Origin: Lenzites betulinus
Taxonomy: Eukaryota; Basidiomycota; Agaricomycetes; Polyporales; Polyporaceae
Direction of reading: 5' to 3'
DNA: 64,000 nucleotides
NCBI GenBank assembly: GCA_022264855.1
Contig: JABYQU010000021.1
Location: 1 to 64,000, forward strand
The notes under the pieces are model-generated. The model saw only the letters and a program-made list of their open reading frames with translations. It was not told where the DNA came from and ran no database searches. The position numbers were made by a program, and so were the translations under genes. Positions 8,486 through 40,328 of this stretch are shown here, piece after piece. The stretch's first letter is position 1. Each line of letters begins with the position of its first letter.

Positions 8486-11400
8486 CTACTCCGCGCCGTC
8501 CGCCGTCGACGGCTCCGCCTCTGGTATCGGACTCGAGTTTCCAGCCCCGCGCGCGACGGGCGACGTCGCCGCAGACGGGGGCGACCGCTCCACGCCCTCC
8601 TCCTCCTCAAACTCAAGCTTCCGCCTCCGCCCAAACCCGATCCCCCAGCTCCCGGCAAAACTCGCCAGCCGGCTCGTCGCGGACGGCCCGGCGCTCGCCC
8701 CGGCCCCGAGCCCGAGCCCCGCGAGCGCGCTCGACGACGTCGTCGCCGCCGCAGACGGCAGCCCGCTGATGGAGCTGCGCTTCTGCGCGAGGATCGAGTG
8801 CGACGTCGTCCGCCGACGCGTCTGCGCGAGCAGGCTCGCCATCCCGCCCGTCGGCGAGTCTTCTGGGGACGGGATGCGCGAGCCCGCGAGCGCCCCGGGC
8901 ATGCCGATCGTGTCTGAGCCCCCCGAGCCCGAGCCTGAGGAGGGGGTGGACGCGAGTGCAGGGGATGCCTGTTCCGAAATAGCGGTCGTCGGCATCGCCT
9001 TCGCGGCTGCCCCTGCGGTGGAGACGCCAAACGGGATCCTGCCCACTGAGAAGCGGGAGGAGGTCGAGCCACGGGACGCACGCGATCCAGGGCGGAGCGG
9101 CGACGGCTGGGTGGGAAGGTGGCTATTTTGAGGCGGCGCCCCGGCGCTGGGCCGTGTCGGAGAGGCAGGCGGAGGTGGCGGGGAAGCCGTGGGAGACGCG
9201 TCTGGGGATGGCTTCGCGCTCTCAGACGGGGTCGCAGGACGCGGCAGCGACAGGTCGTCCGTCTCTGATGCCGACGCGGCAGCCTGCTCGGCAGGCCCAG
9301 CTTGTGCGAGGAGACGCGAGAGCGACGACGGCCCTGCGGTGGGAGAGGAGCTGGGGCGCGCGCGCGGGAAGAGGCGCGACGTCGGGGGACGTGTCACACT
9401 GAACGATTCTTCCACCTCCGGCTCCGGCGGACCTATGGGTATGGGCGCCGAGGCCTCAGCCACTGGGGCGGGCTGGGGTGGCGTATCTGACAGGCATTCG
9501 GCCGCTGGAAGCTTCTTGGTCGATTCCCGCCGCTTCGAGGTATATGCAGGCTGGGTCCAGTCCTCCACCTCGAGCATGTAGTATTTTACCCCGTCGCCTA
9601 GCCCGTATGGATTCGAGCTCGGGTCCTGCGAAATTCCGTCCGAAAGCAGCCGTGGTCAGCTCTAGACGACTCTCCCGAGACAGCCAGTCCACACAGGCGC
9701 CATGATACGCACCTTGGAGTCCACTACCCGCTCGGTGATAGACGTGATCCGTGCAACAATCCACTCGCGCGTCTTCAGCTGCTCCGCAAGGTGTCCGGTA
9801 GCTTGCAGGAAATAGTGTGGGAAAGATACTGGACGCAGGGGATGATTATCACCACCGGGGAGAATTGTCGGACGTCAGGGCCTGGGTAAATTACCGATCA
9901 TCACCGCACCCAGACTCACCGTTAAACGCGGCCCACGGCTTCGAGACGGAGTTGCGAGTGGGGAGGAACAGGGCGAGATCGTTCTTGGCGAAGTTCCTGA
10001 ACGAAATCTTACCCTTTGCGCGTTCGCGGTAGTCCTTGCACTGCTTCTGCCACTTGCGAATCGTCGACCCAGCTTTGCCGATAGCTTCGAGGAAATGGTC
10101 GTGGTCGAACGCCCGCAAAGCCTCGAGCGCACCAACTGGGTCTGACGGGTCGATAGGCAGCGGCTCGCCCGAGAGCGGGACAATGGCGTGACGCCCGTTG
10201 CTGTGAATCGAGTCGGCCAGGTTTGTAGCGGTGGCATTCTTGTTGGCGGGGTGCGTTATCATGGTCTGCACCGCCGTGAGTGCCTTCACATGTGCGTTGC
10301 GGAACGCGAGCGCGACGTCCAGCAACTGCGCGACGAGCCTTTCGCTCTCCTCCAGCCGATGCTCGTACTCTGACTGAGACGCCCGTCCGGCGCGAAGATC
10401 CTCCCGGACGGCCCGCTCATCGCGCCGAGCGTCCCGCAGTTCGTGCTCGACGCGTTGTAACTCCTCCCGGAGGCCGACAGCGTCTGCGTTTGCCATCTCC
10501 GCCTGCGCGCGCGCGTCCTTGAGTTGGCGTTCCGTGTTCTCCAACGCCGCCCGCAGCTCTGAGAACTGATGCTCCAGCACCGCACGATCGCCGTCGGCCT
10601 CCGCGATGTGGTCGCGCAGAAGCCGATCGTGCTCGGACGCCTGAGCGCGAAGGAGGCGGTCCTTCTCCTTGCTTGCCTCGACGAGTGCCTGTCTCACCAC
10701 ATCGCTTTCCGAGCGAGCTGTCTGGATTTGCGCCTCCAGATCCTCGCCGCGCGACCTGGCTTCTTCTAGACGGCGCAGAGTGTTCGTCTGCTCCTCCAGG
10801 AGTGTGGCGACTTTCTCCGCGTTGCGTGCCTCTAGCGACTTAACGGCCTCGAACTCCTCCTGGACCTGGGACAACTTCTGCCGCAAATGATCAGCGATGC
10901 GTGCCTGCTCGGTAGCCTCCGCCAGTGCGTCTGCGAGTTTTTCGCCCTTCGAGCCCGCTTCGGCCGTCATCTCCGTGTTGCGTTCGTCGAGGATCCGCCG
11001 CGCGTTCGCCTCGCTTTCAAGCTGTGCACGAGCAGAGTGCAGGTCACGCTCCAGTTGGCCACGGGCTGTTTCGGCGACCCGCAGTGAGTCGCGCAACTGG
11101 TGTATCTCCGCCTCGAGCGCGGCACGGCCGTGTTCGTGCTGGGCGTCTGCGTCCGTCTTCTGCTGCCGCAGTTCCTGCAATTGAGCGGTCACCTCTGCAT
11201 ACACCTGATCGTCCTCTGTAGCTTAGAAGTCAATACAGAATCAGCCTCATGATACACTGCACGAAGTCAATAGAGGGAAACTTACCTCTGCGTCGGTGAC
11301 TGAGCAGTCGAGAAGACGAGAGCACTTCAAGGCGATCAGCGCCGACGGACATTCAGTGGGCGAGTACACTCACGGGATCGTTCAGCAATCCTATCGAACC

Positions 11401-29519: not shown

Positions 29520-32500
29520 ATGTCGCACGCACAGAAACCCTCCGTCGACAGCGAGATGCACGAGCTCAACGAGGAGGCCGACCTGTTCGAGCAGAAGACG
29601 ATCATCGTCCCCGGCGGCGCGAATGGCGAGGACACCAAGCTGCAGGCACACAACACCGACCCCGACGCGCAGGCGATGGTCATCGAGTCCCTGCGCGCGC
29701 AGGTGCAGGACCTGTTCTCGCAGGTCTCGCAGCTGAACAACAAGCTCGTGCGCTCGTACGACCGCATCTCGGACCTCGAGGACGAGCTGCACGTCAGCGC
29801 GTCGAACCACCGCCGCGCGACGCTCCGGATCTCGCAGCTCGAGCTCGAGCGCACGCAGCACCTCTCCGCGCTCAGCACGGGGCTGCTCGTCGAGAAGTCG
29901 CATGTGACGACGGAGCTGAACCGGCTCATGGAGAAGGCGACGGAGGAGGCGGCGCGGCGCGGGCAGGCGGAGACGGCGCGCCAGGAGATCGAGCAGGAGC
30001 TGGACGACCTCAGTGCGGGGCTGTTCAACCAGGCGAACATTATGGTCGCTGAGGCGCGGATGTCAGAGGCACGCAGCGCACGCAAGCTTGAGGAGACCGA
30101 GACCGCCCTCCGGGGCGCCGAGGAAATCGTCGGGGTGCTGCAGGCGCAGATGCAGGCGCTGCAAGCGGAGAAGGAGCAGGCGGACCGGCGGGTCGAGGAC
30201 ATGCGGGCGAGGATGGGCAAAGGCAAGTGGGTGGATCGTTCGCCGGAGAGCGGTCGTCCGCATCGGCCACGCCTCATCTCGAGCCACGTCCCGTACCATG
30301 AGTTCCTCGTCTTCATCTCCCACCTCCGTGCCATCCGACCAGCGTCGCCGCAGCCACCCGCCATGTCCACCCTTCTTCCGCTGCCGCTCCTAGCGCGCCT
30401 TGTCTCCGAGGACTCGTACGTTGCCGCATATTCGCTTTGATCAGTACGAACACTAACGCGGTGCATGTAGAGACCCGACCGTTCGGCTAGATCTGGCACC
30501 TTCACTGAATTGGCTGTCGCGTCGGTCTGTCCTCGCCGCGATTCACAGCGGTCAGCTTACGGTCGAACCTATGCACTTCGCAAATCTCCTCGAGGAGCTG
30601 GCACCACCAAATATACCCGCCAGCTCCCATCATACCCACATCGTGTGTGCCCTCTGCGGCATGCCCATCTACAGCACCCACTCCGACTCCCCCGCGACGA
30701 CCCCCACCACCCCCAACGCTCTGCGCTCCGGCTCGCAAAGCGCCTCCTGGTCGACCACCCTTTTCAAGAACGTGCGTGCGGGAGACATCACGCTGCCCAC
30801 CGCGTTCACCGGGAGCAACCGAAGCTCCGTCCAATTCGGCGCAGCGAGCAGCGAGCCCCCCTCGCAGGTCTACATCTTCCGCCTCGAAGCGACGAGCTCC
30901 GGCCTCCCCGTCTCCCTCCCGCTGTCCTCCCAGGGCCCTGGCACGCCCACGCGGCAGTCAACCATCTACCCGCTCTGCACGTCCGGGTGGTGTCTCGGCC
31001 GCCTGCGCACGACGTGCTCCCTCTGGGCGTTCGTCCGCACGAGCATCGTCGAGAAGGTGTGGGACGAGCCGCCGTTCACCGAGCGCCCGAGCGCGAACGG
31101 CGCCGCCGCCACGAAGGCTGTCACGCTCAACGGATCGGCGGAGAAGAAGCCCGAAGGCGCCCCGAACGGCGTGTCCCCTGCGCGCGACGGCAAGCCCGCG
31201 ATCCCCCCGCGCCGCTCGAAGATCGGGCTCGGCTCGATCTGGGGCTCGATGCAGCGCAGCCTCAGCGGGACGCGCGAGCCGGAGACGACGGCGACGGCAA
31301 ATGGGAGACCGCGGGACACGTCGCGGGAGGACGCTCGGCCGAAGCTCCCCCCGCGGGACCCGTCGCGCAAGAGTCTGCCGCCGCCGCCCCCGGTGCACCC
31401 GTCCATCGCTTCGCACGCGCCGACGAAGTCCGTCGGGCAGGTGCACGCTGTGCCGCCGCCGCTCCCGAAGCGGAGTCGCGGGCGCGAGGCCACTGCTACC
31501 CCGGAGCCCGAGCCTAAAGCGCTCACGTTGGAGGTGCCGCCCAGCGAGACGCAGCCCAGCGAGGACGCACCCGCACCCGCACCCGCACCTGCAGACCAGC
31601 CTCAGCCAACGCACAAAGAGGAGCAGAAGGCACCGACGGAGGAAACACCAGTGGAGGAGACACCAGCGGAGGAGACACCAGCAGCAGCAGAGGCCCCAGC
31701 CGCAGCGAAGCCCGACCTCCTCGTCGCCCCGCCCCCCGACTTCTCCCGCAGCGAGTCGCAGGACTCGTTCGCGACGCCGACCGAGGAGCTCGCGCCCGCG
31801 TTCACCGCCTCGCCCGCGCCCACCGCCGTGCCCCTCCCGCGCTCGCAGGCGCCCACGCCCGTACCCGTGCCCGCGCCGCAGGAGGCCGATGCGGATGCCG
31901 ACAAGGGCAAGGAGACGGCGGCGGCCCCAACGGACGACAGTGCGAATGAGGCTGCGCCGGTGATAGCCCCCACGCCGATTGCGGCTGTGCCGTCCACACT
32001 ACTGGACGAGAAGCCGCCGTCGCGCGCCGCGTCGCCCGTCCCGCCTCCGCTTCCGCGCCGCGCGGCTGCGCGCGCACGTCCGTCGTCTGTCAGTGTCCCC
32101 CAGGCTGTGGACGCCCCCAAGGAGACCGCACCGCAGGAGACCGCCCCCGCCTCGACCGCGCCGGTGGACGGTGCCGCGCCGGCGCCTGTCGTGGAGGAAC
32201 CCGAGCCTATCGTGCCCGAGGGCGAGAAGACGGATGTCGTTGCTCCCACCGAAGATGCGGCACATGCAGAGGTTACTCCCGATGAGCAGGAGAAGGCGCA
32301 CGAGTCGTGGGTCAACGTAGACAACGCTTCTCTCGAGTCGCAGTCCGAATCCGAGGCCCATCCCTCACCAGAAAAATACGAGGAGGACGTGAAGGTCGAG
32401 CCCGAGGTGCCGGAGGTGTCGGAGGAGAAGGCGGACGACGGGCAGTACGTGGGCGAGGCGACGTGGGAGGAGCGCACGTACCGCGAGCTTGTGCGTCTCC

Positions 32501-32544
32501 GCGAGGAGATGTTCTGGGCGCGCGTCGGGGCGGTTGTGCACTGA
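29520..32544 (+). CDS. SEC2: Sec2-type Rab guanine nucleotide exchange factor
   Basis: Exchange factor for the exocytic Rab Sec4 on post-Golgi vesicles. Two exons (29520-30415 and 30471-32544; branch-point-like CACTAAC in the 55-nt intron) give 989 residues. Residues about 55-235 form a long coiled coil ending in the Sec2p/Rabin8 GEF signature LDDLSAGLFNQANIMVAEAR (residues 161-180). A second conserved block after the intron (RLDLAPSLNWLSRRSVL; HIVCALCGMPIY; CTSGWCLGRLRTTCSLWAFVRTSI) belongs to fungal Sec2. The remaining 450 residues are disordered and rich in Pro, Ala, Glu and Thr, with repeats such as EETPAEETPA. The conserved tail is TWEERTYRELVRLREEMFWARVG. ATG 29520 was chosen over an upstream TTG. 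A broken copy of its 3' end lies at 36001-36375. Confidence 0.93.
31624..31700 (+). repeat. Short Glu/Thr/Pro coding repeat in SEC2
   Basis: Tandem units GAGGA(A/G)ACACCAG(C/T)G code for EETPVEETPAEETPA within the disordered region of Sec2. This is a minor low-complexity expansion. Confidence 0.65.
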
Positions 32545-32810
32545 CGGTGATGGGTATCTATGTGGATTATGACTAGGCTACTTAGACAGCACTTGTTGTA
32601 CGGCGTCCGGCAGCTTGGGTATAATCTAGACGGGCTGTTATATGCATTTTATGCGGTATCTTGAGTGAGTGAGTTGGCTGTGATTCCTCAAACCGTGACC
32701 CTACATTGAGTTGGATTTTACACCCACCGTTCACTGTGGAATAGCGAGCGAAGTAAATATACACAGGTCATGGCGACATGCTCGGGCTCGATGTATGGTT
32801 TATAGATGCC
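32449..32810 (+). repeat. Direct repeat copy A: SEC2 3' coding end and downstream flank
   Basis: The last 31 or so codons of SEC2 plus about 265 bases beyond the stop match 36001-36375 in the same orientation. Landmarks shared by both copies are GCGACGTGGGAGGAGC, ATCTATGTGGATTATGACTA, CGGCGTCCGGCAGCTTGGGTAT, CCGTTCACTG, and ATGGCGACA..TTCGAGCTCGAT/CTCGGGCTCGAT. This copy is the functional 3' end. Confidence 0.9.
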
Positions 32811-32929
32811 AAGTGGGGGAAAGCGGCACGTTCAAATAGTGATGGGAATACAGTGTGGCAGAGAACAATGGTCGTACGATAGGAGCTGGGGGGAATGACC
32901 GTCTCCGAAACGATTCAACGTTCAAACGT

Positions 32930-35388
32930 TCACGGGCGGAGTCGCGAAACCTTCAGCGGCAACGCGGGAATGCCGCTCTCCCTCCCGACAGTAGGGTATA
33001 CCACCGACGCGGCGTTCCACACGATAGAAGCACCCGTCGGCTCGAACCTGAAGTACTGTAGCATGATGAGGAGGACCGTTTCTGTAGAGACAGGATGAGT
33101 ACACGAGAACAACCAGCTTTGTGGACATTGGATCTCACTGATCTCCACTTGCGCGAAGTTGAAGCCGCTGTATATAGAGGTAAGCACGCGGGCGCACCAT
33201 CCTAAGCTCTATGCACTTACATACACGCCCGGCTGCCGGCGAGGAACGTCATCCTGTGTATCGACACGACCAGTCAGCGAACCCGCTCCTGCAGTGTACA
33301 GCAAGAACACCACTCGCATGTGTGAGAACACCCCCGGTATGCGCGCCTCCTCCACCTCTTTGGGCACTGACCCCGCCAACCAGCGCTCTGGCTTCCACTC
33401 TGACGCGTCAGGACCCCAGAGCGCGGGGTCGAGGTTACATGATTCCGTGTCGATGATGACACGCGTGTTTTTAGGGAGCGGGACGGCGGTGATGAGCTCG
33501 CCGTCCAGACCGCGCACGGGTGTGGCGAGCGGTAGGACGGTGTCTCGGGTGGCCCTGTATTACGGGTGGTGAGTTAGGGTGCTGCGCCCGGGCTGGACTA
33601 GGTCACAGGTAAGGCGTACTCTCGGAAGACCATGAAAACGCCAGGATATCTTGGATATCAGGTCAGTACGAGGCGCACACATAGCGTGAGATGCGGGTAC
33701 CTCCGAAGTGTTTCGCGACATACGGCGTCCATGTACGGCAACGCCATGAGCCGCTCATATGTAAGCGTGTCATTGATCCCTTCTGCCTCGACCGCGGCGA
33801 TTATCTCTGCACGCAGACGCTCCTGTACGTCAGGGTGCTCGGAGAGCAGCTGAAGTATGCGTGCGAGTGTGTTCGCCGTCGTGTCCATGCCGGCGAGGAT
33901 CATCGTCCTGCAACACGGTACTTTCGAGTGAGAGCCGAAGGAAGAAGAGCATACGGGGTGACGTACGACACTTGGCCGAGCAGCTCGTCGTCGGGGAGCT
34001 TATCTTCCGCGGAGGCGAGCATGTTGTTCTTTACTACACGAGTCGCTTCAGCGCTGCAATCACGGAAAGCGTCCTCGCCCGGTCAGAACTTACGGAGAAT
34101 ACTCATGACGTCCCGGCCCTCGCCAACCTGGTGCTTCACTGCATCATCACCACGTGCAAGCGCCGCTTTCTTCTCGTTGAAGATGAGCACCGAACGTGCG
34201 TGCATGCTGTCGGATATCTCCTTCATGCGGCGTATGTTTGCGTTCGGGAGGTGCTCCATCACTCGGCGACGGAACGCGGCCGAGCCGATGTGCACGAAGT
34301 AGGGAAGGAGGACCCGCGGGACTGCTGACTTCTGCATCTGCGGACTGTGGAAAAATCGTGAGAAGAGATGAAACAAATGTTCTAATACAAAGGCTAGCAA
34401 AGAGACACGCACAAGAACGCCTTGACGGTCTTCGCGAACTCATCCGGGGCGTCCTCGACAAGCGGGTCGAATGAGTATCCAAGCACCCCCTGTCCGAGCA
34501 CTTCGAGCGTCGTGCGACCCATCCAGGAGAGCATGTCGAGCTCCACGTCCGTCGCGGAGCCCGTCTCAGCACCGGCCGGGAGGCGCGCCATCATCGCATC
34601 GCGGGTCTGTGGAGATTGATGATTAGTGTGGACTTCCAGTGAAAACCAGTGATGCCATGTGCGAGAAACATGAGAACCAACCTTGTGAATGATCTCATAG
34701 AACAGCGGCGTTAGGTTGCGCAAGTGCTTTGTCGAGAAGACCGGATTGAGCATCTTGCGCTGCCGGCGATGTTGTTCGCCTATCGAGCAACGTGAGACAC
34801 TGATATATTCGCGATGCGCATGCGCACGACGAACCTATGGTTCCGAGGAGACCAGGACCCAGCATGATGCGTAAGCTCCTGTAAGGCAACTTCTCAGCTC
34901 GCGGGACGTGACACATCCACAGTCGACATCGTACAGATTGGGCTCTTCGAACGACTCCTGGTCCTTGCTGAATATTTGTTGAAGCGCCTTCGGGTCGTGG
35001 GTGACTATCCATTGTTCCTATAATCAGAATGGGTAACAAACCGTCAGCATGCGCTCAAAGCAAAGCAATGGGCGAGAGACAGCGCACGTTGAATAGGCCG
35101 CGAATGGTGGACGTGCGCCCATACTTCGTCTTGAGTTCATGGCGCCAGTCCCAACTGTGGCGACCCATGAACTGGTTGACATTTCCTGCACTCCGCAGGC
35201 TGCGCTCAGCACTGCATGTATCCCGGGCAAGATGCATGCATACCGGTGAGAAAAGACGGAGACGGCGGCCCCGCGATATTCTTGATTGTGCTCTTGATTA
35301 CGAGTGGGCGGACCAGTCTCCACGCGACGTACAGGCCCACTGCCACGAGCGTTGCCTGCGACAAGGTGAGGTTATCCAGAAATGCCAT
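32930..35388 (-). CDS. Cytochrome P450 monooxygenase
   Basis: Membrane-anchored haem-thiolate oxygenase. ATG 35388 opens an N-terminal anchor helix (LSQATLVAVGLYVAWRLV) followed by the Pro hinge AGPPSPSFLTG. About a dozen exons keep one frame. Motifs in order: GRHSWDWRHELKTKYG; GEQHRRQRKMLNPVFS (C helix); I-helix AGMDTTANTLARIL; K-helix ETLRR; PERW; and haem loop FLAGSRACIGFNFAQVE, whose Ile codon right after the ligand Cys is split by an intron (33180-33235 region). The end is at 32930-32932. The sequence resembles the large Agaricomycete P450 groups with the same C-helix motif, but the CYP family and substrate are not assignable. It is bracketed by direct repeats of the SEC2 3' end. Confidence 0.93.
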
Positions 35389-35435
35389 GGCGAGGGCGAG
35401 TTGGGCTGGTCGCGCTGGCACTACATCGATGAGGT

Positions 35436-35443
35436 TATATATT
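35436..35443 (-). promoter_or_regulatory. TATA box of the P450 gene
   Basis: On the minus strand ATATATAA lies about 50 bases upstream of the ATG at 35388, the usual spacing for TATA-driven inducible P450 genes. Confidence 0.55.
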
Positions 35444-36000
35444 GTATGGGAGAAGGGCCATAAGGGTCCGGGAAGCGCGGGCAGTGTGCGATCTCACATT
35501 ACTACGAGCGGCCGTCAGGGACGGAGTTGCACGATGCAAGGGGTAAGTATCGAGGATCCACCAAGCATTGCACGATGGCAGAATCATAACGGGCCTGGAA
35601 AAATTGACACACGCACGATACCACAGGCCGTAGCCTCCAGAGTCTCGTATTAGTTCAAGTTGCACAACACAACCGTAGCTCTTCAAGCTTCAGGCCTTCC
35701 ATGCATGTGCATTATGCTGTTTAGAGTGTGTCTTCGACCTTAGCCATGTGAGTAACGTCACCCTGAACACGTATGGGAGCAACTACATCTCTCCGGATAG
35801 TTTTTTGGTTCGCGTGCGGACAACATGTTCTTGTTTGGTTGCTTGATGTCACCTAGAGAGATGCTCGCTTCGCTCGCAATGTCTTACGCAACGGCACACA
35901 TTGGAGCGGAACGCTTACCGCAGCGCAGTGCCCTGAGGTCTGAGATCTGAGACGGCGGGAGCTTCACTGATTACCGGGATTGGTGTCAGGCCGCGTGGTG
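35444..36000. other. Upstream region of the P450 gene
   Basis: About 560 bases between the P450 TATA box and repeat copy B. No gene or repeat was recognised. It belongs to the segment enclosed by the two direct repeats. Confidence 0.5.
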
Positions 36001-36375
36001 AGTGGCGAAGCGACGTGGGAGGAGCACACGTACGTACCGGGAGCTCGTGCGTCTCCGCGAGCAGATGTTCTAAGCCCGCGTCGGTGCGGTCGCGCACTGA
36101 CGAGTACCGGTAGGGAGGTCTAGGAAGCGCATCTATGTGGATTATGACTAGGCTACCTGAGCAACACTTGTACGGCGTCCGGCAGCTTGGGTATGTTCTA
36201 GACGGACTGTTGTATACATTTGGGGCCTCGGTGGTGGAAGTACCTGAAAGATATTCATGCAAGGTGACCTTACAGTGACTTGCTTGTACACCCGCCGTTC
36301 ACTGCGGAACAGCGAACAATTGAATATGCGCAGGTAATGGCGACACGTTCGAGCTCGATATATGGATTGCCGATG
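36001..36375 (+). pseudogene. Direct repeat copy B: degenerate SEC2 3' end
   Basis: This copy matches the last codons and downstream flank of SEC2 (32449-32810). The coding part is broken: a four-base insertion (TACG) at about 36031-36034 shifts the frame in TYREL, and the conserved Trp codon of EEMFWARVG is TAA here (near 36070). Downstream there is an extra stretch of about 19 bases, then the shared landmarks through the CTCGAT box. It lies 85 bases beyond the stop of the convergent SPP2 gene. It encodes nothing useful and marks a past duplication. Confidence 0.88.
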
Positions 36376-36459
36376 TCCGTATATTCTATTGTTACAAACA
36401 TAAAGCGCGGAGAACCCTGGTGATAACATCGTGAACATCCGTACCTCATTATTCAGCGC

Positions 36460-37864
36460 TCAGTACCGATCCTTTCTGCGGGAAGAGTCGTACTTGTCCG
36501 CCGAGCGGTCCCTCCGCCTGTCTCGATCGCCGCCACGATCCTTGTCCCGACGCGACGAGTCGTAGTCGCGGTCGCGTTCTCTGCGCGAAGAGCCATCGTC
36601 GTCCCGACGCCGGTCGCGATCGCGGTACCGGTCGCTCTCCCTGTCCTTCTCGCGGTCGCTAGTCTTGTAGCGGTCGCGGTCGTCACGTGCGCTGTCTCTG
36701 TCCTTCCTACGGTCGGGCGAAGGGGACCTCGATGCCCTCCGTGATCCATGTCTTGACGAGTGCGCGGGCGAACGTGGCCTGGAGGAGCCCTCTCGCCCAC
36801 TCCCCCCGCCGTCCTCGCGCTCTTTCTTGATCACGGGCACATACCGCCTCTCCGGTCGCGCCTTTCCGCCCTTTTTCTTGCTCCCATCATCGAACACCTC
36901 CTTCTCCTTCGCCCCAATCCCCAGTAGCGCCGGGCGCGCCTGAGGGAGCCACGGTTCGATCATGCCCTTCCCGCGTTTGCTCGCCGCCATGCCCTCCTTC
37001 CATCCCATGCCGCGCAAGAGTGCCGCGCCGAACTGCGAGATCGGCACCCGCTCATAGTCATCGAGGGTCGCAGACTCGGGCAGCTCCTCCACGTCCTGTT
37101 TGTACGCCTCGTCCTCGCTTGGTGCGGGGATGATGTCGATCTGTGGGCCGTCCAGCCCGTCGTCCCCGCCTGAGGCGGCAGCCGCGAGGATCGCGCGCAG
37201 TGCACGCTGGTCGTCCGTGTCCTCTTCTTTCTTCACGTCGTCTGTGACGGGGGTCTCGGCCGCGGCTTCGGGCATGGGGATGTCCCCTGCAGCGTCTTCC
37301 TCGACCTTGGCGCGTTTCTTCATCTGCAGGCCCGTGAGCTGTGGGCCGGAGTTGATGCTGTCGCGGGTGCCGAGGCCGCCGACGGAGCCATCCGCCCCTG
37401 TGGGCGCCGCGGCGCTGGGCGGGACATAAAGCTGCTTGCGTTTCCGCGCGAGCTCCCGCCAGTCCTTGTTCTTGAGTGCGGGAATCACGAGCGGACCCTG
37501 AGGCTTCGGTTTCTCGTGTAGCCTGCGGAGGAGAGAGAGAGGGACGGGCTGCTGTGAGTTGAGGACCCGCGCGGGGAAGGTAAGAGAAAAGCACACACCG
37601 CTGGACGCCGAACTGGTCAAACCCGGTCACAAGTTCATCCTCGGGCCCAGAGCCTTCATCTGAGCTGTCGCGTTCGGTGTACGTCCTGGAGCGATGCTTG
37701 GGCGAGGGTGGGGTGCTGCGAGCAAGAGGGCTGTTTGGAGTGCTAGTACCGGACAGGTGACGGGGGAGAGTGGGGACTTTGAAAGACGAGTCTGAGTCCG
37801 ACACAGGCGTGGGTCTCCGCACTGTAAATGAGACTTTAGCTGGCGCGGATGAGGAGGAGGACAT
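36460..37864 (-). CDS. SPP2: Pre-mRNA-splicing factor Spp2 (G-patch, GPKOW/MOS2 family)
   Basis: Nuclear activator of the Prp2 DEAH helicase in spliceosome activation. Two exons (37599-37864 and 36460-37522; 76-nt intron) give 442 residues. The Spp2/GPKOW-type G-patch is YERVPISQFGAALLRGMGWKEG, located about residues 240-262, followed by MIEPWLPQARPALLGIGAKEKE, which is also conserved in the family. Upstream, GFDQFGVQR and PLVIPALKNKDWRELARKRK match the N-terminal conserved block. The C-terminal 120 residues are RD/RS/RE-rich (DRDRRRDDDGSSRRERDRD), longer than in yeast and similar to metazoan GPKOW. The acidic middle is low complexity. Stop codon 36460-36462. It is convergent with the relocated SEC2 repeat and divergent from the zinc-finger gene. 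Confidence 0.92.
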
Positions 37865-39076: not shown

Positions 39077-40328
39077 ATGTACAACTCTACGGGCTACCCG
39101 CAGTTCTTTGACCGTGACTTTACGTTGTATCAGGGGCTGCAGATACCACCAGAAGAGCATTCATTGGCGAATATTCCAAGCCACTTGGGCTTGGAAACCG
39201 AACGAGTGAGTGTGACCTCGAGATCGACACTGCATTTACCGCCGAGACTCATGATGTGTCTCGCGGTAGTTCGAAAGACTGGCCTTCGAAGGTCAGGAAG
39301 AGCCCCATGGTGGGGCTTTACCTCAGCAGATACCTGCTGGGGGAAACCTGGTGTCCCACGACACCTTGTTGTTTAATGAACAACATCCAAGTGAGTACAA
39401 CATTTATGCTAGTATATGCCCTTGGTGTTGTCACCTAGTATACTCATTGCATATACCTTGTAGACTCTGACAATGGAGTGTCCTACTGGCCTCCCTCAGG
39501 CACTCCATCACTCTCTCAACCTCCCTACTCAGCCCTCTCTCCACCTCCCTACTCAGCCCTCTCTCAACCTCCCTACTCAGCCCTCTCTCAACCTCCCTAC
39601 TTAGCCTCAGCCTTCTCTCAACCCCACTACTCCTCTCATCTCCCCGGTCCCCTCTCTCAACCCCCCTACTCCTCTCATCTCCCCGGTCTCCTCTCTCAAC
39701 CCCCCTACTCCTCTCATCTCCCCGGTCCCCCAACATCCCCCTCCCAACTGGGCTACTTCAACAGTCAGCCCCCCTCTGGAAACTATGCTTCCCATAATGA
39801 AGCCGATTTGGTGAGTATCACATAGAAAGCTCTTTCACACCTCTGAGCAATGGGCTCCTACAGGAGATATATTCTCCTACACAGGTTCCCCTACAAACTA
39901 GGGGAACCTCATTCCAGGGCCCAAACAATGGCCCAGGAACATATACATGTCACTTGTGTGACCAAAGTGTGTGGACATTCTGCCTGTGTACAATGTCTCT
40001 GCAGACCAGCTGAGACAATGGTGTGGATGTATCTAGATTTTACAAGGGCCTATAATAGGGATCAGCACATCCAAACTGTGCACTATCTCTGCAGGCCCCA
40101 TCAATGCCCTGCTACAGGGTGTTCAAAGATTTACTCCAGGAAGGATGACCTCTGGAGGCACTGGGAAAGCACTAGGCATGGGCCTTCTAGGCCTTATGGG
40201 TGTGACCTCTGTAAAAAGAGGTACCTCAGTGAAGTGAAACTCCAAAACCACCGCTGTGTGCCCAAGGTGTGTATTTCTTGTGTCTTGTGTAGCTGATTAT
40301 GCTGACCCATCTTGTTCACCAGAGTTAG
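39077..40328 (+). CDS. C2H2 zinc-finger protein with N-terminal tandem repeats
   Basis: Probable DNA-binding regulator. Six exons (39077-39205, 39270-39390, 39464-39810, 39885-39966, 40037-40266, 40323-40328) join in one frame to 304 residues. The 43-residue start MYNSTGYPQFFDRD is followed by a Gln/Pro-rich region with four SQPPYSAL-type and three SQPPYSSHLPG-type units. The C-terminus has three fingers: CHLCDQNFTRAYNRDQHIQTVH (C-x2-C-x12-H-x4-H, created by splicing exon 4 to 5), CPATGC..H-x5-H with SRKDDLWRH, and CDLCKKRYLSEVKLQNHRC (ending H-x-C). Codon use is richer in A/T-ending codons than in flanking genes. The last exon codes only Ser and the stop. No orthologue is recognised. Confidence 0.82.
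39514..39609 (+). repeat. Four 24-bp coding repeats (SQPPYSAL)
   Basis: Four contiguous units code SQPPYSAL, SPPPYSAL, SQPPYSAL and SQPPYLAS. DNA identity between units is very high, with one C/A change in unit 2 and a few changes in unit 4. Confidence 0.92.
39616..39732 (+). repeat. Three 39-bp coding repeats (SQPPYSSHLPGPL)
   Basis: Three contiguous units code SQPHYSSHLPGPL, SQPPYSSHLPGLL and SQPPYSSHLPGPP. They share the SQPPYS core with the adjacent 24-bp repeats, so one array probably arose from the other by adding SHLPG. Confidence 0.92.

Follow-up and report, generated by a model that had tools for sequence, protein, structure and literature searches.

A cytochrome P450 gene between two copies of the SEC2 3′ end in Lenzites betulinus: probable copying into a shared 3′ flank with duplication of the target

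Introduction

How does an accessory metabolic gene come to lie between two copies of the end of a housekeeping gene? This question is raised by a locus in a stretch of 64,000 nucleotides from the basidiomycete Lenzites betulinus (contig JABYQU010000021.1, positions 1 to 64,000; hereafter the window), in which a cytochrome P450 gene is enclosed by two direct copies of the 3′ end of SEC2 and followed by SPP2. An earlier note on this DNA, made from the sequence alone, had proposed that SEC2 and SPP2 were once convergent neighbors and that a P450-bearing segment entered at the SEC2 3′ end, duplicating part of it. Our analysis upholds that proposal on the basis of donor homology that ends at or near the repeats, sequence divergences, gene linkage in relatives and phylogenetic trees. 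We put at roughly 85% the probability that the P450 segment was copied into the shared 3′ flank of SEC2 and SPP2 by break repair or template switching, and that about 360 bases of the target were duplicated on that occasion.

Results

The coding region of SEC2, the gene of the Rab guanine nucleotide exchange factor Sec2p, lies on the plus strand at 29520..32544 with an intron at 30416-30470 (deposited as C2E23DRAFT_903704). Its first exon matches Pfam PF06428, and the spliced model agrees at 100% with the deposited L. betulinus protein P0121. SPP2, which encodes a G-patch splicing factor, lies convergently on the minus strand at 36460..37864, as judged from open reading frames (ORFs) and a match to Pfam PF12656, and agrees at 100% with the deposited protein P0241. 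Two plus-strand copies of the SEC2 3′ end are found in this region. Copy A (32452..32809) comprises the final 30 SEC2 codons, the stop codon and about 265 bases of downstream flank, while copy B (36004..36376) is an orphaned version that carries a four-base insertion (a tandem GTAC) and a TAA stop in place of the tryptophan codon TGG. When 32452-32801 is aligned with 36004-36368, 279 of 375 columns are identical (74%, E = 1e-64), and conserved bases extend to the ends of both copies at 32809 and 36376. The starts of the copies are 3552 bases apart. Orientation, spacing, content and lesions are therefore as the earlier note had described them, except that the duplicated stretch measures about 360 bases rather than 330.

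The target sequence is otherwise unique. With copy A as the query, a search of the whole assembly (37,416,240 bases in 108 contigs; simple repeats and very common words are skipped) returned two places only, namely, copies A and B, and we thus rejected the possibility, raised beforehand as a refutation, that the repeats are members of a dispersed family. Copy A can be taken as the ancestral SEC2 end because its peptide, with the C-terminal core WEERTY(K/R)ELVRLREEMFWAR, is strongly conserved in the proteins of 29 relatives, chosen from 120 listed.

Unlike the repeats, the inserted segment of 3.2 kb between them (32797..36003) is a copy of sequence that is present elsewhere in the genome. The stretch 32800-35400 has counterparts along most of its extent at five other sites, one on contig C30 (82%), one on contig C1 (83%) and three on contig C18 (79, 70 and 69%; individual C18 copies are called C18a, C18b and C18c), and 13 further matches elsewhere are all short stretches. 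Homology to C30 (32800-35530 and 35753-35928) spans exons, introns and flanks, and its left end coincides with the end of copy A, such that the resemblances to copy B and to C30 overlap in a left junction zone at 32797..32809. Homology to C1 (32925-35490) is followed by a further 27 bases at 35931-35957 (88.9%) and reaches to within 46 bases of copy B. Insert and repeat borders thereby coincide within about 12 bases on the left and within 46 on the right. Short resemblances between donor and target are seen at both junctions, where a divergence of 20-30% hides the original state.

As controls, alignment scores of the flanks were compared with those of 500 mononucleotide shuffles. To the left of the window border, C30 and C1 resemble each other (score 39, reached by 0 of 500 shuffles), and the left flank of the window is not clearly alike C1 (194 of 500 shuffles reach the score). 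On the right, C1 and C18a share more than 400 bases (score 274 versus a shuffle mean of 44), and the 100 bases of the window from 36004 onward show no resemblance to C1 (264 of 500). The flanks of the family thus continue where the window switches to SEC2 sequence, indicating that the window copy is the insert and hence derived.

The earlier note had also described the P450 gene as complete and on the opposite strand, and this was borne out: it is an intact minus-strand gene of 14 exons at 32930..35388 that encodes 555 amino acids. Our initial model, with 13 introns and 559 amino acids, matches the deposited L. betulinus protein P0001 at 99% and Pfam PF00067 over residues 41-524 (E = 3.1e-60). 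After comparison with the deposited protein, one acceptor was shifted, which places the end of intron 7 at 34034 in agreement with that protein. The resulting 555-residue model has no internal stops, and its introns are of the GT-AG type in 12 of 13 cases, intron 11 being GC-AG. Cytochromes P450 are marked by an I-helix motif AGxDT and a heme-region motif FxxGxRxCxG, and the translation holds both, as AGMDTT and FLAGSRACIG, in addition to the Pfam domain. The closest solved structures by sequence are CYP3A enzymes (E about 1e-23). The GC donor of intron 11 (33317-33254) is also found in C30 and C18a, and GT stands in its place in C1, C18b and C18c. Immediately before the heme region, the deposited P0001 and P0003, the latter from the C30 copy, have three additional residues (RVV, QVV), which look as if a downstream GT had been used as the intron 11 donor.

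If target duplication and copying were a single event, the two repeats should have diverged for as long as the insert and its sister copy. At sites taken as neutral, the divergence K between the repeats is 0.326 (95% interval, 0.254-0.412; 288 sites), or 0.224 (0.159-0.301) without the poorly aligned positions 32651-32712, which is compatible with the split between the window and C30 (0.252; 0.221-0.285). The corresponding values are 0.306 (0.270-0.345) for C1, 0.421 (0.374-0.470) for C18a and 0.760 (0.676-0.851) for C18b. The earlier note had suggested building a tree of the P450 against its paralogues, and in the DNA tree of the segment, (C18b,C18c),(C18a,(C1,(window,C30))), the forks uniting C1, window and C30 and uniting window and C30 are both supported at 100/99. 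The window is likewise sister to C30 in the protein tree (98/92; 30 rows chosen from 120 listed, one C18 copy missing), in which five L. betulinus family proteins cluster together (100/99) beside two T. gibbosa proteins. The two trees place C1 and a C18 protein in different order. The capture, which had been called datable, can thus be dated in relative terms only: it postdates the separation from the sampled Trametes proteins and has about the age of the split between the window and C30 or C1.

The copies have since met different fates. On the window branch, dN (nonsynonymous divergence) is 0.027-0.031 and dS (synonymous divergence) 0.13-0.19, depending on whether C1 or C18a serves as the outgroup, and this low dN relative to dS indicates that the window P450 is constrained. 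Its closest other family member, the C30 copy (C30:192759-195349, in L031), has exon deletions of 1, 16, 1 and 6 bases, a 3-base insertion and a missing acceptor, a set of lesions by which it is judged to have become a pseudogene. The C18a copy lacks 1 base and its lesions include a damaged acceptor, and in the same exon comparison C1, C18b and C18c differ by 3-base insertions or deletions only. The C30 copy is nevertheless deposited as the 540-residue protein P0003 despite its frame-breaking exon deletions, around which the gene model appears to step.

For relatives, the earlier note predicted direct SEC2-SPP2 adjacency where the P450 is absent. To this end, we ran three protein searches (P450, SEC2 and SPP2; best 120 matches each) and judged linkage from protein-record names, contig sizes and a few gene numbers. 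A relative was counted when SEC2 and a P450 of at least 55% identity were both listed under a single species name, with agreement of the strain name wherever one was given. This gave T. gibbosa, T. polyzona, T. cingulata, T. versicolor (VTO73), C. menziesii, Cubamyces BRFM 1775, T. meyenii, T. maxima, T. sanguinea (ACG7TL), D. nitida, T. punicea, C. squamosus, T. cinnabarina, P. arcularius, D. squalens (strain match unchecked), G. adspersum, G. leucocontextum and E. typhae; Lentinus tigrinus was omitted, its rows coming from two strains. In all 18, among the matches listed, the related P450 is on a contig of a different size from the SEC2 contig. SPP2 was also listed for 14 of them, and in 13 it shares a contig size with SEC2, G. 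adspersum being the exception. SEC2 and SPP2 have consecutive gene numbers in T. cinnabarina (g15/g16), Taiwanofungus (009492/009493) and Gelatoporia (75130/75131), the last of which we weighted less since numbers of the same style are not consecutive for the two genes in T. cingulata and Obba; in Wolfiporia, they are seven apart. Contig sizes and some of the gene numbers thus agree with SEC2-SPP2 linkage without a related P450 on the contig.

Discussion

Taken together, these results suggest the following course of events. In the L. betulinus lineage, the 3′ flank that the convergent genes SEC2 and SPP2 have in common would have suffered a break or a stalled fork. Its repair would have drawn on a P450 locus of the C30/C1 family, presumably the ancestor of the C30 copy, from which about 3.2 kb would have been copied. 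The target stretch of about 360 bases would have been duplicated in the same event, giving the order SEC2, copy A, P450, copy B, SPP2. SEC2 would have kept its last codons and downstream region in copy A, and SPP2 its downstream region in copy B; since the duplicated stretch is the common 3′ flank, neither coding region would have been broken, and both genes presumably kept complete 3′ ends. With the new copy under purifying selection and the C30 copy decaying, the gene would in effect have moved.

In mechanism, the copying was probably either synthesis-dependent repair of staggered breaks or template switching. On the first route, synthesis would fill in both sides of a break with widely spaced nicks on opposite strands, and copied DNA would bridge the two; on the second, a fork would switch to another template and return upstream of its point of departure. 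The product is identical on both routes, and the age of the junctions prevents a distinction. Unequal tandem duplication, which the earlier note had offered next to repair of staggered breaks, is not needed.

Several observations nevertheless weigh against this account. The repeat divergence is equally compatible with the split between the window and C1, and its upper limit touches the divergence of the window and C18a. The resemblance of the left flank of the window to C30 is marginal (29 of 500 shuffles reach the score), and these two points together lower our confidence slightly. On the right, the 46 bases at 35958-36003 do not align with C1 (72 of 500 shuffles reach the score) or C18a (439 of 500); they may be filler or decayed donor sequence. 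Between copies A and B, only 3 of 62 first and second codon positions have changed, which is fewer than expected for neutral decay of copy B, although the number is small. As for the relatives, T. sanguinea (009125/009127) and F. radiculosa (01593/01595) have a single intervening gene number between the two genes; for T. cubensis and G. adspersum, the numbers are far apart and the contigs differ in size. Finally, P450s of 47-49% identity are found on contigs of the size of the SEC2 contig in five relatives (T. gibbosa, T. polyzona, T. cingulata, T. versicolor FP-101664 and D. nitida), at distances from SEC2 that the records do not give.

Could the duplication be older than the insertion? The 360-base SEC2 end might first have been tandemly duplicated by slippage or unequal exchange, with the P450 segment entering the junction of the copies later. 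An older duplication would give a repeat divergence above that of the window and C30, as the point estimates do (0.326 versus 0.252), although the intervals overlap; the insert, however, would have had to hit within tens of bases of the single junction between copies A and B, and we regard this sequence of events as improbable. Still less probable is an ancestral P450 at SEC2, followed by tandem duplication of SEC2 or of a SEC2-P450 unit and by loss of the surplus parts, of which copy B would be what remains. This would yield an identical gene order, and a copy B that was coding for a time would explain its few first- and second-position changes, but P450-family sequence occupies the interval up to 46 bases short of copy B, the related P450 lies off the SEC2 contig in all 18 relatives, to judge from contig sizes, and in the tree all five L. 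betulinus family proteins group together next to T. gibbosa. The P450s on contigs of SEC2 size are those of 47-49% identity; the less similar L. betulinus P450 on the SEC2 contig itself, P0101, is at C23:293611-296644. Least probable of all is that a transposon brought the P450 as cargo, the repeats being its ends or target site: a dispersed element does lie inside the insert and the P450 family is itself dispersed, but the repeats encode the SEC2 end and were found nowhere else in the assembly, the element (35509-35879) is internal, no direct repeats at E 0.1 or better were found in the compared flank stretches of the other five family copies and no type of element is known to make a target duplication of 360 bases.

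Copying by break repair or template switching has parallels in other organisms. In plants, repair of distant nicks on opposite strands duplicates the stretch between them, sometimes with filler; the natural case in L. betulinus differs in its insert of 3.2 kb related to other contigs. For primates, PMC2671141 describes repair-mediated duplication through DNA capture at double-strand breaks, with target site duplications in 7 of the 12 interchromosomal cases that lack a polyA/T tail (rows of its Table 1 summed). These duplications span 4-21 nucleotides, filler of 1-68 nucleotides also occurs, and the authors treat the proximal class alone as confidently repair mediated. Shared with our locus is the copying of sequence from one other place into a break, and the filler lengths would fit the 46 unaligned bases; in contrast, the duplication of about 360 bases is far longer and, unlike in those primate data, a whole 14-exon gene was copied and kept. 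PMC3445842, on filler-DNA repair in grasses, likewise has gene-bearing fragments serving as break-repair filler at noncollinear sites, although there in wheat and with transposable-element insertion, whereas L. betulinus is a basidiomycete whose insert shows no element at its borders. This locus is named in none of the 6 titles found on Trametes P450 duplication and in none of the matches listed on filler, nick and patch repair (15 of 21, 12 of 34 and 12 of 20), and the title and abstract retrieved for Lenzites betulinus, cytochrome P450 and genome concern seryl-tRNA synthetase.

The event is therefore of a known kind, well preserved, and leaves the list of known mechanisms unchanged. Its value lies in being an unusually complete fossil of gene relocation, for which a single genome records the target duplication, the borders, the sister copy, the relative age and the later fate, and it illustrates how an accessory P450 can enter a housekeeping neighborhood with the coding regions unbroken. 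The locus also provides a marker that can be scored by polymerase chain reaction or synteny across Lenzites and Trametes. It is tempting to speculate, if doubtfully, that the long target duplication is what makes such an insertion viable, one repair event giving each of two convergent essential genes its own terminator and making space in which an accessory gene can settle; in compact fungal genomes, metabolic genes would then land repeatedly in convergent 3′ flanks.

Additional observations

The dispersed element mentioned above is a decayed short element on the plus strand (35509..35879), upstream of the P450 and also present in C30; its ends were not found in the tested upstream stretches of C1 and C18a. 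We rejected element-mediated capture since this element, the only one found in the insert, is internal and not at the borders. It is a decayed relative of a 445-base element with three identical copies at C27:59442-59886, C49:169913-170357 and C55:38204-38648, further relatives on C65, C40, C47, C28 and C22 and no obvious terminal inverted repeats. The 445-base element looks recently mobile, judging by its sequence copies.

The C1 copy of the P450 is flanked by inverted metallo-beta-lactamase-like ORFs (L032 2214-3125, plus strand, and 8515-9480, minus strand). The inverted pair, which covers both ORFs, is 77% identical over 887 columns, and one ORF scores above the cut-off for PF00753 and the second just below it. 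A DNA stretch near the C30 copy resembles one of these ORFs (75% over 359 columns) without a Pfam match. These neighbors suggest that C1 and C30 share an older neighborhood, and the P450 and the metallo-beta-lactamase-like gene possibly formed an old two-gene cluster. Just to the left of the C30 segment lies a tRNA-Ile (AAT) gene (L031 4050-4125, minus strand). In the window itself, adjoining minisatellite-like arrays with units of 24 and 39 bases occupy 39511-39730, and matches to another P450 at C23:63536-64613 span its right edge.

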